Positions 3,094-10,393 of a stretch of DNA of 64,000 nucleotides are shown in pieces. A model generated the notes under the pieces. The model had not been told where the DNA came from. It did no database searches and saw only the letters and a program-made list of their open reading frames with translations. The stretch spans positions 62,001 to 126,000 of the forward strand of contig CAJXVM010000010.1 in the NCBI GenBank assembly GCA_913061095.1. Reading direction: 5' to 3'. This stretch comes from an uncultured Ignavibacteria bacterium. Lineage in GTDB: Bacteria > Bacteroidota > Ignavibacteria > SZUA-365. Within the stretch, counting starts at the first letter, position 1; every line of letters begins with the position of its first letter. The position numbers and the translations under genes are program-made.

Positions 3094-5793
3094 ATGAAAC
3101 TGTTTTCCAATCTCTCCATTCGCGCCAAGCTGACAGCGGTGATTTCACTGCTGTTCTGGACGGTTTCAATTTTCATTTTCATATTCTTTCCTGCGCGTCA
3201 GCGCGATCAGGCCTATGATGCGCTGACAGAACGCGCGAACATGACCGCGAGACACGCGGCGAGCTTCCTCGAGCTGGAAGGGGTGTCCGTCGCAGACGAT
3301 GCCATGCGACAGCGGGCGCTGTCCGCGGCACGGGCCAGCGCCGATACGCTGCTGCTGTATGCTGTCATCGTCGATAACAAGGGGAATACCGTCGAGTCGA
3401 TAAATCTTCCGACCGCAGAACAGGCGGACTACAGGGAGGTCGAGGATCCGTACGGCTCGGATATTGGTGTCTGCAAAGCAAAGGAGACCATCAAAGCCGA
3501 CGGGAAGATTCTGGGGACCATCTTTCTCGGGCTGTCGACCAGCCAGGTGCACGCGCGCATGGAAGACATGCAGACGACGATCGCTTTGATCAGTCTCATC
3601 ATTTTTCTGATCGGTGTTGCTACAGTGATCGGTGTCTCGACAGTGATCACGAATCCACTGCGGAACATGGTACAGACCGTCGAGCAGATTGCGGGCGGCG
3701 ATTTCGTGAAACGCGCACGGGTTTCAACGCAGGACGAAGTGGGGCATCTGGCCTTCTCATTCAATCAGATGGTAGGCAATCTCAAGAAAGCGTATGACGA
3801 ACTGGAAAATGCCAACCTGACACTTGAGCAGCGCGTGGGTGAACGCACCAAGGAACTGAATGAGGAAATTGTTGAGCGCAAGCGGGTCGAGGAAGCGCTG
3901 CGCGAAAGTGAATCCCGTCAGCGGGCCGTCCTCAGTGCGTTGCCCGATCTCATGCTGCTGCGCGACGGTAGCGGCATTTATTCTCCCGATCCCGTCCTGC
4001 TGATTCCTCCCGGTGAAGTAAAATCGGATATGACACGCGAACAGTACGCCTGGAGCCTGATGGCGCGTTTCGAACCGTACTTTGAGGCAGCGCTTACGAC
4101 GGGGGAAGTGCAGGTGCAGGAGTATTCGATTCCGTTCGATGAAATGCCGCGCTATTTCGAGGCGCGCATCGCTCCCTGCGGTATTGATCAGACGGTTACC
4201 ATCGTGCGGGAAATCACCGACAGGAAAGAAGCGGAATCGCAGCTCACGCTTCAGAGTGCCGCGCTCGAGGCCGCAGCGAATTCCATCGCCATTCTTGATC
4301 TGGATGGCAGCATCATCTGGGTCAACCCCGCCTATACGGATCTGACCGGCTATTCATTCACCGAGGTATTTGGCAAGAATGTGCGCGATATCGATATCGC
4401 CGTCGAGCAGCAGGATATCCTCGATTCCATGTGGAATACCATTGAATCCGGGAATGTGTGGCAGGGCGAACTGCTGATGCGGAAGAAAGACGGCAGCTCA
4501 TATTACGAAGAGCAGACGGTCACGCCGGTTCGGGACAGTGCCGGCGAGGTGACGCATTTCATCGCAATCAAGAGCGATATTTCAGAGCGCAAGAAAATTG
4601 AACAGTCTCTGATCGCTGCGAAGGAAAGTGTTGAGGCTGCTGACAAGCTCAAGGATGCCTTTATCGCGAATATTTCGCATGGTATCCGCACACCGCTGTA
4701 TATCATGATCGGCTATCTGAATCATATTTCCTCTGAACTGAAATCATCGTTGACGCCGGAGCAGGACAAATATTTCGGATTTGTCTTCGAGTCGGCCGAC
4801 CGCCTCACGAAATCTATCGATCTCATCCTCGATATCTCTCGTCTGCAGACAGGAAATATCGAATTCCAGGATATCGAGATATCGCTCCGGCGCATCATCG
4901 AGGACCAGATTCTCGAAGTCAAGTCGATTGCGGCGAAGAAGAATCTTGCCCTCACCTTCGACAATCAGCTGGGAGATGTCCGCGTACGCGCCGATGAAGG
5001 CTTTCTGGCGAAATCCATCCACAGCCTTCTGGAAAACGCGGTGAAATTCACTCGAAAGGGATACGTGGAAGTGCGTCTGTACCCACGGGATACGGGTGAG
5101 ATCTCAATTGATGTCGAGGATACCGGCGTTGGAATATCCGAGGACTATCAGAGCAAGATGTTCCAGATTTCCACACCGGCAAACGACGCCGCGGGGCATG
5201 CCTTCGAAGGCGTCGGACTCGGACTCGCGCTCGTGCGCCGTTACCTCGAGCAGCTTGGTGGGCGCATCACCATCAAAAGCGCGCGCGGCGTCGGATCCAT
5301 ATTCACGATTACGCTCCCGGAGGAGCTGATCGTCTCGCATGAAGATATTCCGAAGCTCTCGAAATTTGTCAAGCGTGAAAAAATCACTGACGATGTTCAG
5401 AAAGAACATGGCGGGAGAGCGCTTCCGAATCTGCTCGTGATCGAGGATGATGCCGACACCAGGCAGTTCATGAAAATCACTCTGAAGAAGCACTATAACG
5501 TCTTTACGGCTGAAAATGTCGCAGAGGCGCATGAAATCGTGAACAACAAGAAGGTGCAGATCGTCATCGCCGACGTTTCGCTTGGCGGCGAAGAATCCGG
5601 GCTCGATTTCGTCTCGGAAATTCGCAAGATTCCCCGTTACAGCAAGATCCCCGTCATCGCGGTGACGGCGCATGCATTCGCATCGGACAGAGACCGCTGC
5701 ATCGCCGCCGGCTGCAACCGATACTTCTCAAAGCCTGTCGACCACGCACAGCTGCTCCGCACGATGGAAGAATTGCTGGCCGGTGTCATCTGA
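3094..5793 (+). CDS. Hybrid sensor histidine kinase/response regulator (HAMP-PAS-PAS-HisKA-HATPase-REC)
   Basis: Membrane sensor kinase of 899 residues. In order: membrane helix (~10-33), periplasmic sensor (~34-158), second helix (~160-182), HAMP (~183-235), coiled coil (~235-275), two PAS domains (~280-380 and ~385-510), HisKA (~520-590), ATPase (~635-750, with N, 'DTGVGIS' and 'GVGLGLALV' boxes) and a receiver (~775-899) with phospho-acceptor D827 ('VIADVSL') and conserved T/K. The phospho-acceptor His is H529 in 'ISHGIRTPL'; the usual acidic residue after it is glycine. It starts 69 bases after the secretin and may be co-transcribed with the pilus genes, which would suggest control of surface behaviour, but the output partner is not in view. 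Confidence 0.93.
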   Translation: MKLFSNLSIRAKLTAVISLLFWTVSIFIFIFFPARQRDQAYDALTERANMTARHAASFLELEGVSVADDAMRQRALSAARASADTLLLYAVIVDNKGNTVESINLPTAEQADYREVEDPYGSDIGVCKAKETIKADGKILGTIFLGLSTSQVHARMEDMQTTIALISLIIFLIGVATVIGVSTVITNPLRNMVQTVEQIAGGDFVKRARVSTQDEVGHLAFSFNQMVGNLKKAYDELENANLTLEQRVGERTKELNEEIVERKRVEEALRESESRQRAVLSALPDLMLLRDGSGIYSPDPVLLIPPGEVKSDMTREQYAWSLMARFEPYFEAALTTGEVQVQEYSIPFDEMPRYFEARIAPCGIDQTVTIVREITDRKEAESQLTLQSAALEAAANSIAILDLDGSIIWVNPAYTDLTGYSFTEVFGKNVRDIDIAVEQQDILDSMWNTIESGNVWQGELLMRKKDGSSYYEEQTVTPVRDSAGEVTHFIAIKSDISERKKIEQSLIAAKESVEAADKLKDAFIANISHGIRTPLYIMIGYLNHISSELKSSLTPEQDKYFGFVFESADRLTKSIDLILDISRLQTGNIEFQDIEISLRRIIEDQILEVKSIAAKKNLALTFDNQLGDVRVRADEGFLAKSIHSLLENAVKFTRKGYVEVRLYPRDTGEISIDVEDTGVGISEDYQSKMFQISTPANDAAGHAFEGVGLGLALVRRYLEQLGGRITIKSARGVGSIFTITLPEELIVSHEDIPKLSKFVKREKITDDVQKEHGGRALPNLLVIEDDADTRQFMKITLKKHYNVFTAENVAEAHEIVNNKKVQIVIADVSLGGEESGLDFVSEIRKIPRYSKIPVIAVTAHAFASDRDRCIAAGCNRYFSKPVDHAQLLRTMEELLAGVI

Positions 5794-7757: not shown

Positions 7758-8267
7758 ATGACTGAACGCAATATGCTGTTCCGGCAGGTCCTCGGTTCGT
7801 TTGCAACCGGTGTGGCCATTGTCACTACACGGCATGACGATGAATATTTCGGACTGACAATCAACTCCTTCACATCGGTTTCCCTTGAGCCGATGCTGAT
7901 ACAGATCAATATCGCGAAGCACACGACCTCGCATGAATATATCCTCGAATCCGGTCACTTTGTGGTCAACATCCTCGCGGAAGATCAGCAGCTGCTGTCG
8001 ACGATATTCTCAGGAGCTCCGCCCGCGGAGCGATTCAAGCATGTTGAAACGTGGGAGACGAAGTCAGGTGGTCCGGTGATCGAAGGATCACTGGCATTTA
8101 TCGATGTCAAACTGGTGAGGACATATGACGGCGGTGACCACACCATTTTTCTGGGAGAAGTGACAGATATGCGGAATCTGCGGGAGGATGCACCGCCCCT
8201 GATATACTACCGTGGAAAGTATGCGAGGCTCGAAGGCGGAGCGGATCAATCGAGCGGTTCGGCGTGA
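7758..8267 (+). CDS. Flavin reductase-like protein (FMN-binding split barrel)
   Basis: Member of the flavin reductase domain family (HpaC/ActVB-like), which binds FMN and usually reduces it with NAD(P)H for a partner monooxygenase. The 169-residue protein has the family pattern: 'FRQVLGSFATGVAIVTT' start, 'GLTINSFTSVSLEPMLIQINI' (flavin-phosphate contact), 'HFVVNILAEDQ' and 'HTIFLGEVTDM' near the end. No monooxygenase gene is adjacent, so its partner and substrate are unknown. It is isolated from the preceding gene by two terminators and its last 22 bases overlap the convergent metal transporter gene. No clear Shine-Dalgarno precedes the ATG at 7758; it is preferred because the flavin-reductase pattern starts within six residues. 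Confidence 0.85.
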   Translation: MTERNMLFRQVLGSFATGVAIVTTRHDDEYFGLTINSFTSVSLEPMLIQINIAKHTTSHEYILESGHFVVNILAEDQQLLSTIFSGAPPAERFKHVETWETKSGGPVIEGSLAFIDVKLVRTYDGGDHTIFLGEVTDMRNLREDAPPLIYYRGKYARLEGGADQSSGSA

Positions 8268-9646
8268 ATGAAGACACTACATATGCGCTCTTCACCGGCG
8301 AGAAGTGCATGTTCTATCTGATCCACAATCGCATGCATTTCCTGCAGCGTCAGCGACGCCGGGAGAGTGATCGTGATCGAAAGCTTCAAACCTTCTTCAA
8401 TCTCGAAGACATCAATACCGCGTAGACCGCATCCGGCATGCGCTGCGATAACATCGGATGCGCGCTGTATTACATGATCCCGTTCAGCGGAGGCCGCCGG
8501 GCGGGCAGGGAGCACGGCTGTGGTATCCTCCTCGAGATGAATCCGTACGTCGGAAACATTCGGAATCTCACGGAGAATACGGTTTTCCACGATCGACGCG
8601 ATTTCATGTGCTTCGCTGAACGGAGTACCCTGGGGATACTCAATGTCGAATTCAATGTAATACTGGTCATTGACCCAGAGCAGCAGCACATTGTGTGCCG
8701 TCAGTCCTGACTGCCGCACAAGGTATTCGATTTTATCGGCAAGTTTTTCCCGCACTCCAATCACCGGTTCCGGGTGGACAATGAGATCGGCCCGCGGAAG
8801 CACCTCACGCACGGCAGCCTCCACCGCATCGACGATGCCGTGGGCGCGGTCGAAAAACGTCGTGCGCTGAATCCCGATGACAAGATTTATAAAGAGTGTT
8901 CCTCCGGATGGACGAATGCGCATCCTGCGAATGCTCTCGACGCCGTCGATCTCTTCGACGATGGTGGTCACCGTCTGTTGAATGCCGGGAGGGACGCGAT
9001 CGAGCAGTCCATCGACCGTGCGTTTGCCGAGGCGCAGGCTGATCCAGATGACGATAAGCGCGACGATGGCGGCAGCGATGGAATCCGCTTCCGGAAAACC
9101 CACCATCACGGAGATAAGCCCGATAAGGACGACCAGTGAACTGAAAATGTCCGTGCTGAAATGAAGTGCATCCGCTTCGAGCGCCTGGCTGTCATATTTC
9201 TTTGCAATCCGCATCAGTGCCCGGGAACGGGAGATGTCCACACCGATGGATATGATGATCACGGCAAACGCCCAGAAATTCACCTGGATGTGGACGGCCT
9301 CGCCGGTGAGCCGCTCCCACGCTTCATAGAGAATCCATACCGATGTGAGCAGGAGGAGAAAGGTCTCGAACAGTGCGCTGAGATTCTCAATCTTTCCATG
9401 GCCGAATTGGTGATCCTCATCCGGAGGACGATCGGCGACGCGCACGGCGAAAAACGTGATCGTGGCAGCGAGAAGGTCGAGTCCGGAATGCAGCGCTTCG
9501 GAGAGGATGCCAAGAGATCCCGTCCACAACCCGACGCCAAGTTTCATGCCGGTGAGAAATACCGCAGCAATGACGGAGGTCATTGCCACCCTGCGCTTCT
9601 CCGCGATCATTTCCCTGTGTGCGATCGTATGATGCTGATCGGTCAT
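8246..9646 (-). CDS. Cation diffusion facilitator (CDF) transporter with three C-terminal domains
   Basis: Proton-driven efflux of Zn2+, Fe2+, Co2+ or similar divalent cations from the cytoplasm. Residues 1-~205 are the six-helix CDF core with both metal-site motifs, H53xxxD57 ('ALHSGLD') and a second HxxxD in 'DALHFSTD', plus 'DHQFGHGKIE'. At 466 residues it is ~160 longer than a usual CDF. The extra length is explained by three successive C-terminal cytoplasmic domains of the ZT-dimer kind, each with a beta strand, a 'P/F..AH.I...(V/I)E' helix and a final 'V.IH.EP/EE' strand (about 210-300, 300-385 and 390-466). The metal cannot be deduced. It is convergent with and overlaps the flavin reductase gene. 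Confidence 0.93.
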   Translation of the reverse strand: MTDQHHTIAHREMIAEKRRVAMTSVIAAVFLTGMKLGVGLWTGSLGILSEALHSGLDLLAATITFFAVRVADRPPDEDHQFGHGKIENLSALFETFLLLLTSVWILYEAWERLTGEAVHIQVNFWAFAVIIISIGVDISRSRALMRIAKKYDSQALEADALHFSTDIFSSLVVLIGLISVMVGFPEADSIAAAIVALIVIWISLRLGKRTVDGLLDRVPPGIQQTVTTIVEEIDGVESIRRMRIRPSGGTLFINLVIGIQRTTFFDRAHGIVDAVEAAVREVLPRADLIVHPEPVIGVREKLADKIEYLVRQSGLTAHNVLLLWVNDQYYIEFDIEYPQGTPFSEAHEIASIVENRILREIPNVSDVRIHLEEDTTAVLPARPAASAERDHVIQRASDVIAAHAGCGLRGIDVFEIEEGLKLSITITLPASLTLQEMHAIVDQIEHALLAGEERICSVFIHAEPLD

Positions 9647-9760: not shown

Positions 9761-10393
9761 ATGCTACATATCTCCGATCATCCACTTATCAAGAAAGATA
9801 TTACCGCGCTGCGCAACCGGGAAACCGGTTCCGACGAATTTCGAAGGCTGGTTCGCAGGATAGCGCAGCTCATTGCCTACGAAGCCAGCAGGGACCTGGA
9901 CCTCGAACAGTACAGAGTGCAGACGCCGCTCGAGGAAACAGCGGGATGGAGGCTGACGCGCCCGATAATTCTCGTCCCCGTTCTGCGTGCCGGGCTCGGC
10001 ATGGTCGACGCTTTTCTGGACATGCTCCCCGGTGCACGTGTCGGTCATATTGGACTCTACCGTGATGAGGAAACCCTCGAACCGGTTGAATATTATACGA
10101 GCTATCCGGAGACACTCGGGCAGGCCAATGTCTTTCTCCTCGATCCGATGCTTGCCACAGGTGGCAGCGCAGTCGCTGCCATGCGTATCCTGCGCAACCA
10201 GGGTGCGAACGACATTCGTCTCATATCGCTCGTCAGTGCGCCAGAAGGAGTCGCCGCTCTCGAAGCTGCATTCCCGGAGGCGCATATCTATACGGCCGTG
10301 CTCGATCACGGACTGAACGATCAGGGATACATCGTGCCGGGACTGGGTGACGCGGGGGATCGCATTTTCGGAACGGGAGCGGAGACAGGGTGA
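9761..10393 (+). CDS. upp: Uracil phosphoribosyltransferase
   Basis: Pyrimidine salvage: uracil + PRPP gives UMP + diphosphate, in the cytoplasm. The 210-residue protein is of normal length and has the full family pattern: 'HPLIKKDITALRN..T', 'ETAGW', 'PILVPVLRAGLGMVD' type core with 'PVLRAGLGM', the PRPP-binding loop 'LLDPMLATGGSA' and the uracil-binding end 'LNDQGYIVPGLGDAGDRIFGT'. The start ATG is fixed by 'MLHISDHPLIKKDITALRN', the usual beginning of the family. It has its own promoter-like site and overlaps the next gene by 4 bases (GTGA). Confidence 0.97.
   Translation: MLHISDHPLIKKDITALRNRETGSDEFRRLVRRIAQLIAYEASRDLDLEQYRVQTPLEETAGWRLTRPIILVPVLRAGLGMVDAFLDMLPGARVGHIGLYRDEETLEPVEYYTSYPETLGQANVFLLDPMLATGGSAVAAMRILRNQGANDIRLISLVSAPEGVAALEAAFPEAHIYTAVLDHGLNDQGYIVPGLGDAGDRIFGTGAETG

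Follow-up and report, generated by a model that had tools for sequence, protein, structure and literature searches.

The window analysed here, a stretch of 64,000 nucleotides from a contig of an uncultured Ignavibacteria bacterium, carries at 8246–9646 on the minus strand a gene for a cation diffusion facilitator (CDF) transporter with three C-terminal domains (CTDs), which runs from ATG to stop and encodes 466 amino acids. A flavin-reductase-like gene on the plus strand (7758–8267) is convergent with it, the two ends overlapping by 22 bases, and a uracil phosphoribosyltransferase gene (9761–10393) is divergent from it. Elsewhere in the window, 3094–5793 encodes an ordinary hybrid histidine kinase with HAMP, PAS, HisKA, HATPase and receiver domains; Rfam returned zero matches across the whole window at its gathering thresholds.

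The initial annotation had read three tandem CTDs from the letters of this gene, and Pfam bears this out, finding one Cation_efflux and three ZT_dimer stretches. The transmembrane domain (TMD) spans residues 18–215 (9002–9595, minus strand; Pfam Cation_efflux at 23–215, E 1e-44) and forms six long helices in an AF2 model. It is followed by CTD1 (residues 217–295, 8762–8998), CTD2 (296–373, 8528–8761) and CTD3 (384–464, 8255–8497), all on the minus strand, which, taken singly, reach 50.3, 37.7 and 27.4 bits with ZT_dimer; each exceeds the cut-off of 26.7 bits, CTD3 barely. When the CTDs were aligned with one another, the observed score was reached by 3, 5 and 1 of 1000 shuffles for pairs 1–2, 1–3 and 2–3, respectively, and the recurrent motifs first noted in the repeats are present (H269/H347/H438 and H291-E293/H370-E372/H461-E463). 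At the family level, PF01545 (Cation_efflux) scored 153.1 bits against a cut-off of 26.6, and the NCBIfam model of the CDF superfamily, TIGR01297, scored 240.2 bits against 82.35. The FieF/YiiP equivalog NF050169 stayed under its cut-off (192.8 versus 420 bits), as did the MntE, MamB, MamM, Cdf31, MamV, ZitB and DmeF equivalogs, of which MamB came best (164.6 versus 350 bits).

The idea of a triplicated domain hung on the fold of the second and third segments, and in single-chain AF2 models both CTD2 and CTD3, judged as single domains, adopt the CDF CTD fold. Three consecutive helix-strand-strand-helix-strand units are predicted at residues 222–295, 302–373 and 386–464; the whole-protein model, built from a 16-sequence alignment, has a pLDDT of 84.7 and a pTM of 0.51, and CTD2–CTD3 modelled alone from 33 sequences reached 95.9 and 0.72. 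Among solved single domains, the CTDs of the magnetosome CDFs MamM and MamB, which carry one CTD each, scored highest: MamM for CTD1 (Z 14.9, rmsd 1.5 over 82 residues), MamM for CTD2 (Z 13.4, rmsd 1.7 over 82 residues), where it tied with the cytosolic domain of the Thermotoga maritima CDF (2zzt, Z 13.2, rmsd 1.4 over 80 residues; 6vda, likewise Z 13.2), and MamB for CTD3 (Z 12.8, rmsd 1.7 over 80 residues), which also matched YiiP (Z 12.0, rmsd 1.7 over 81 residues). The T. maritima domain is the best PDB sequence match of CTD2 as well (E 2e-4) and has D at the D334 place; this protein has one CTD, which resembles the middle one of the three here. In a Foldseek search with the CTD2–CTD3 model, CDF CTDs appeared at ranks 4, 6, 7 and onward, mostly with an rmsd below 3 Å over one domain. 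OsmY, methionine adenosyltransferase and CnfU stood at or near the top of the same E-value ranking with an rmsd of ~15–16 Å, and we take these model-based matches as chance likeness among two-domain alpha-beta chains. Against YiiP chains the whole model deviated by 9–12 Å, and the angle that it predicts for the CTDs relative to the TMD was therefore set aside.

Three-CTD transporters proved to be widespread. Among the window's kin, 40 of 41 genomes, its own counted, contain some CDF match, and a three-CTD CDF is present in all 11 other genomes of its genus and family (G001–G011), whole in nine and split by contig ends in G002, whose second piece is 47% identical, and G011. A scan of genome contigs with query alignment A1 matched at least 597 stretches, at least 483 of which encode relatives. 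Counting CTDs among homologues had been proposed from the outset: among the best 80 of these relatives, 66 have three CTDs (one, L043, is open at its start), two have two, 11 have one and one is broken by a stop in CTD3. Because the matches were ordered by their likeness to a three-CTD query, with near-duplicates such as L103/L105 among them, 66 of 80 should not be read as a natural frequency. The 66 are assigned to Acidobacteriota, Chloroflexota, Chlorobiota, Ignavibacteriota, Planctomycetota, Myxococcota, Elusimicrobiota, Pseudomonadota, Armatimonadota, Gemmatimonadota and others, although most sources are MAGs and could include misplaced contigs; cultured strains with three-CTD CDFs are Ktedonobacter racemifer, Thermogemmatispora carboxidivorans and Azospirillum sp. 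B510, in the last on a plasmid. The architecture is retained in relatives down to ~40% identity and is thus not an artefact of assembly or reading frame. A profile of CTD2–CTD3 gave near full-length matches of at least 95 bits in 47 of 198 genomes from the window's phylum, the next best match (58.5 bits) covering one domain; 38 of the 47 belong to a single family (f26), probably Chlorobiaceae, judging from the contig-scan matches. On viral contigs, none of 16 pattern matches was a relative.

Residues 21–295 of the window protein align to YiiP of Shewanella oneidensis (E 4e-33); YiiP/FieF of this species and of E. coli is a single-CTD Zn2+/H+ antiporter, which the window protein resembles in its DHH site B and its CTD fold. 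Alignment to YiiP TM2 places the first half of site A at H53 and D57 (9476–9490, minus strand); the second half is H162 and D166 in TM5 (9149–9163, minus strand), and the site B loop comprises D76, H79 and H83 (9398–9421, minus strand). Across 86 three-CTD proteins (the 66 from the contig scan and 20 from other searches, with five partial rows omitted), D57, H162, D166 and D76 occur in all 86, H79 and H83 in 85 each and H53 in 84; site A is complete as HD-HD in 84/86 and site B in 85/86. K85 (86/86) and D216 (85/86) are conserved too, and we take this pair to be the counterparts of the charge interlock between TMD and CTD in YiiP. The HD-HD arrangement of site A differs from the DD-HD of E. 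coli YiiP and is described for clades shown to carry mainly Zn (PMC5703985). An iron-linked clade shares HD-HD (PMC5703985), so Zn2+ is not certain as the substrate; judged from these residues, it is the most likely one.

CDFs usually consist of one TMD and one CTD (PMC7864060). The CTDs characterized so far are reported to dimerize and to bind Zn at the dimer interface, which is thought to activate efflux, and a single change of a CTD ligand to reduce transport substantially (PMC10710835). Using a sequence alignment to S. oneidensis YiiP, we located the equivalents of its site C at residues 240, 256, 269, 291 and 293 in CTD1, 318, 334, 347, 370 and 372 in CTD2, and 409, 425, 438, 461 and 463 in CTD3. 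Beside H234, H263 and D287 of YiiP, we take its H250 and H285 to be further metal ligands. H234 is assigned to site C1, H263 to C2 and D287 to both (PMC10617992).

The full pattern H-[HD]-H-H-[DE] occurs in no CTD1 (0/86), in CTD2 of 82 proteins and in CTD3 of 52, with 51 carrying it in CTD2 and CTD3 together. CTD2 is incomplete in only four (L015, L019, L023 and L108), and its H318, H370 and H347 are found in 86, 85 and 84 of the 86. The single CTD of YiiP holds a binuclear site; in the three-CTD proteins, CTD1 has no His at the places of YiiP 234 (residue 240) or 250 (residue 256) in any of the 86. The last three ligands (H, H, D/E) are retained in CTD1 of 51/86, so weak binding there is possible; D or E stands at 240 in 24/86. 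At the five positions the window protein reads RVHHE in CTD1 (R240, V256), HDHHE in CTD2 (H318, D334, H347, H370, E372) and RTHHE in CTD3 (R409, T425, H438, H461, E463), leaving CTD2 as its only full site. The Azospirillum sp. B510 protein, which lies outside the 86, reads QDGAH (with D at 256), HDHHE and HHHHE. A cysteine adjoins ligand position 425 of CTD3, at position 426, in 66/86. The distance from H291 to H318 is 26–28 residues in 84/86, fitting a rigid CTD1–CTD2 unit, as far as spacing can suggest one; CTD2 and CTD3 are more loosely spaced, H370 and H438 lying 66–70 residues apart in 76/86.

For comparison we hand-picked 20 single-CTD CDFs of the same phylum (frames of 289–400 aa) among the ZT_dimer matches listed. 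These controls have His at 256 in 18/20; at 240 they have His in 9/20 and E, N or D in 11/20, which makes 256 the stronger sign of ligand loss. The two controls with Asn at 256 (L116 and L118) are close one-CTD relatives. Among the best 80 of at least 483 relatives, all 11 with one CTD have H240, and at 256 nine have Asn and the other two I or K, so they too differ from YiiP at this position. The one-CTD sisters from Ignavibacteriota and Bacteroidota (for example L054, L065 and L077) are 52–59% identical to the window protein over approximately residues 16–294, share sites A and B, and end after CTD1. In those inspected, L054, L065 and L077 among them, a His lies two residues past Asn256, a possible shifted ligand on the same strand face. 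Both two-CTD proteins have H240 and read HHHHE in CTD1.

The initial annotation had suggested that triplication could change either metal sensing or dimer gating, and the ligand pattern, with CTD1 degenerate, CTD2 near-invariant and CTD3 variable, points towards altered metal sensing. Taking together the three domains, the fold predicted for them, their conservation and this pattern, we infer that the protein is probably a dimeric CDF metal/H+ antiporter, most likely for Zn2+, in which metal sensing is divided among three tandem CTDs. CTD1, next to the membrane, retains the fold and the conserved hinge residues and lacks metal ligands; it would probably serve as a metal-poor dimer scaffold that relays movement to the TMD. 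Human ZnT7 is reported to dimerize despite a CTD without metal sites (PMC10932157), so a metal-free CTD1 could play such a part. CTD2, with its near-invariant YiiP-like ligand set, would probably be the main Zn2+ sensor, and CTD3 may be a second sensor in many members, degenerate in the window's lineage. A rise in cytoplasmic metal would then load CTD2 (and CTD3), the CTDs of both chains would be drawn together via CTD1, and efflux would increase. Metal binding is reported to alter the CTDs of S. oneidensis YiiP only slightly (PMC10710835), and control may therefore work by something other than closure.

The ligand sets bear on two other readings. CTD2 and CTD3 could form a metal buffer or a hand-over chain that passes Zn2+ toward the transport site with no role in gating; the CDF CTD is described as having a metallochaperone-like fold (PMC10710835), and the 51 proteins in which both added domains hold full ligand sets would suit such a role. 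In YiiP, however, the metal site of the CTD is located where the two chains of the dimer meet and is believed to regulate activity (PMC10617992, PMC10710835, PMC10932157), and in the window's lineage CTD3 lost ligands yet the domain stayed, which a pure buffer hardly explains; we give this reading a small chance. The extra CTDs could instead serve mainly as dimer contacts or as a surface on which a partner protein or higher oligomers could dock, the metal of CTD2 being structural, which we consider to have a slightly smaller chance. CTD3 ligands do vary by lineage while its fold is constant, and a YiiP site C double mutant with Fab is reported to form domain-swapped dimers of dimers (PMC10617992), so CTDs can set the oligomer state. 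One member from Armatimonadetes (L041, locus 71–1993) also carries a GNAT domain (PF00583, E 8e-15) in frame behind CTD3, a possible fusion. Against this reading, few residues of the added region are as constant as the CTD2 ligands.

We next turn to the age of the three copies. A tree of 98 single CTDs was built from 28 hand-chosen proteins of the 86, seven one-CTD and two two-CTD proteins and three distant ones. A starred branch (support 97) has all CTD1s on one side, together with the CTDs of one-CTD relatives. The CTD2s and CTD3s sort mostly by position rather than by organism, with 3 and 2 label changes against ~24.6 after shuffling; on these few columns neither forms a supported single clade, and the CTD3 of one long row (L017) falls among the CTD2s. 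Since the CTDs sort by position across phyla, the three-CTD arrangement is old, and the sequences make it most likely that the copies were already distinct when these lineages split or when the gene was passed among them. The two CTDs of L066, a two-CTD protein from Planctomycetota, both read HHHHE and are mutual neighbours (support 94), a separate duplication.

The place of the one-CTD relatives was addressed with two TMD trees, both of them quick trees with weak deep forks. In the first, one-CTD rows were nested among three-CTD rows. The second added 13 single-CTD outgroup rows and omitted 15 three-CTD rows that had long branches or were near-duplicates, the five partial rows and 8 of the 20 controls; here the one-CTD rows lie near the base, but the three-CTD rows L022 and L087 lie there too, and the root branch has a support of 69. 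An AU test did not reject the grouping of all 86 three-CTD rows in one clade (p 0.463), a result that falls short of demonstrating such a clade, and the association between CTD number and H240 comes down to two independent pairs, too few for the sign test (p 0.5), both on starred branches. As far as these sequences go, the one-CTD relatives may represent the ancestral state or a loss of CTD2–CTD3, and the two domains may have been gained once. That one-CTD sisters exist at such high identity means that the pump presumably works without CTD2–CTD3 in those species, but the idea that the extra copies are tolerated passengers with no distinct function is scarcely credible, given that many phyla retain the arrangement, that its spacing hardly varies and that the CTD2 ligands are nearly invariant.

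Returning to divided sensing as the preferred reading, a more specific form of it is possible, and we put it forward tentatively: sensing would have moved off the membrane-proximal CTD, leaving CTD1 as a metal-free dimer scaffold and CTD2/CTD3 as a second sensory layer, in which CTD2 and CTD3 may pair within the chain as a pseudo-dimer with its own complete site C and may give a stepwise response to metal instead of a single switch. Sensing and gating by CTDs in CDF pumps are described as debated, with metal-dependent closure in some pumps set against the small changes in S. oneidensis YiiP (PMC10710835). In the usual CDFs one domain both dimerizes and senses, so mutations may disturb both. 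In three-CTD CDFs, across many phyla, the two tasks seem to fall to different domains of the same chain, and these proteins, or their comparison with one-CTD sisters, would allow sensing to be viewed separately from the integrity of the dimer. In titles and abstract openings of the open-access literature, which leaves most subscription journals outside, we found no description of CDFs with two or three CTDs. Three-CTD CDFs thus appear to be a widespread CDF subfamily that we did not find described; domain databases may list such architectures.

Among the flanks of the 66 three-CTD loci (ORFs of at least 90 aa, sets of at least three loci, genes named from reading their sequences rather than by search), no metal-related neighbour recurs across phyla. 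The larger recurrent sets each stay within a single phylum, for example an OsmC-like gene at nine loci and a membrane-protein gene at 12 in Acidobacteriota; a kinase-like set of three loci spans Acidobacteriota and Chloroflexota. None of the sets looks metal-specific. At its nine loci (L048, L052, L055, L069, L071, L073, L074, L080 and L090) the OsmC-like gene closely follows the CDF gene in the same orientation, from an overlap of a few bases to 381 bases on. The architecture also matters for annotation: the three-CTD protein of Azospirillum sp. B510 is named merely 'cation diffusion facilitator family transporter' in its annotation. On plasmid pAB510c of this strain (L109, 4001–6143), the three-CTD CDF gene overlaps a same-strand MgtC/SapB family gene by 11 bases, suggesting one transcript.
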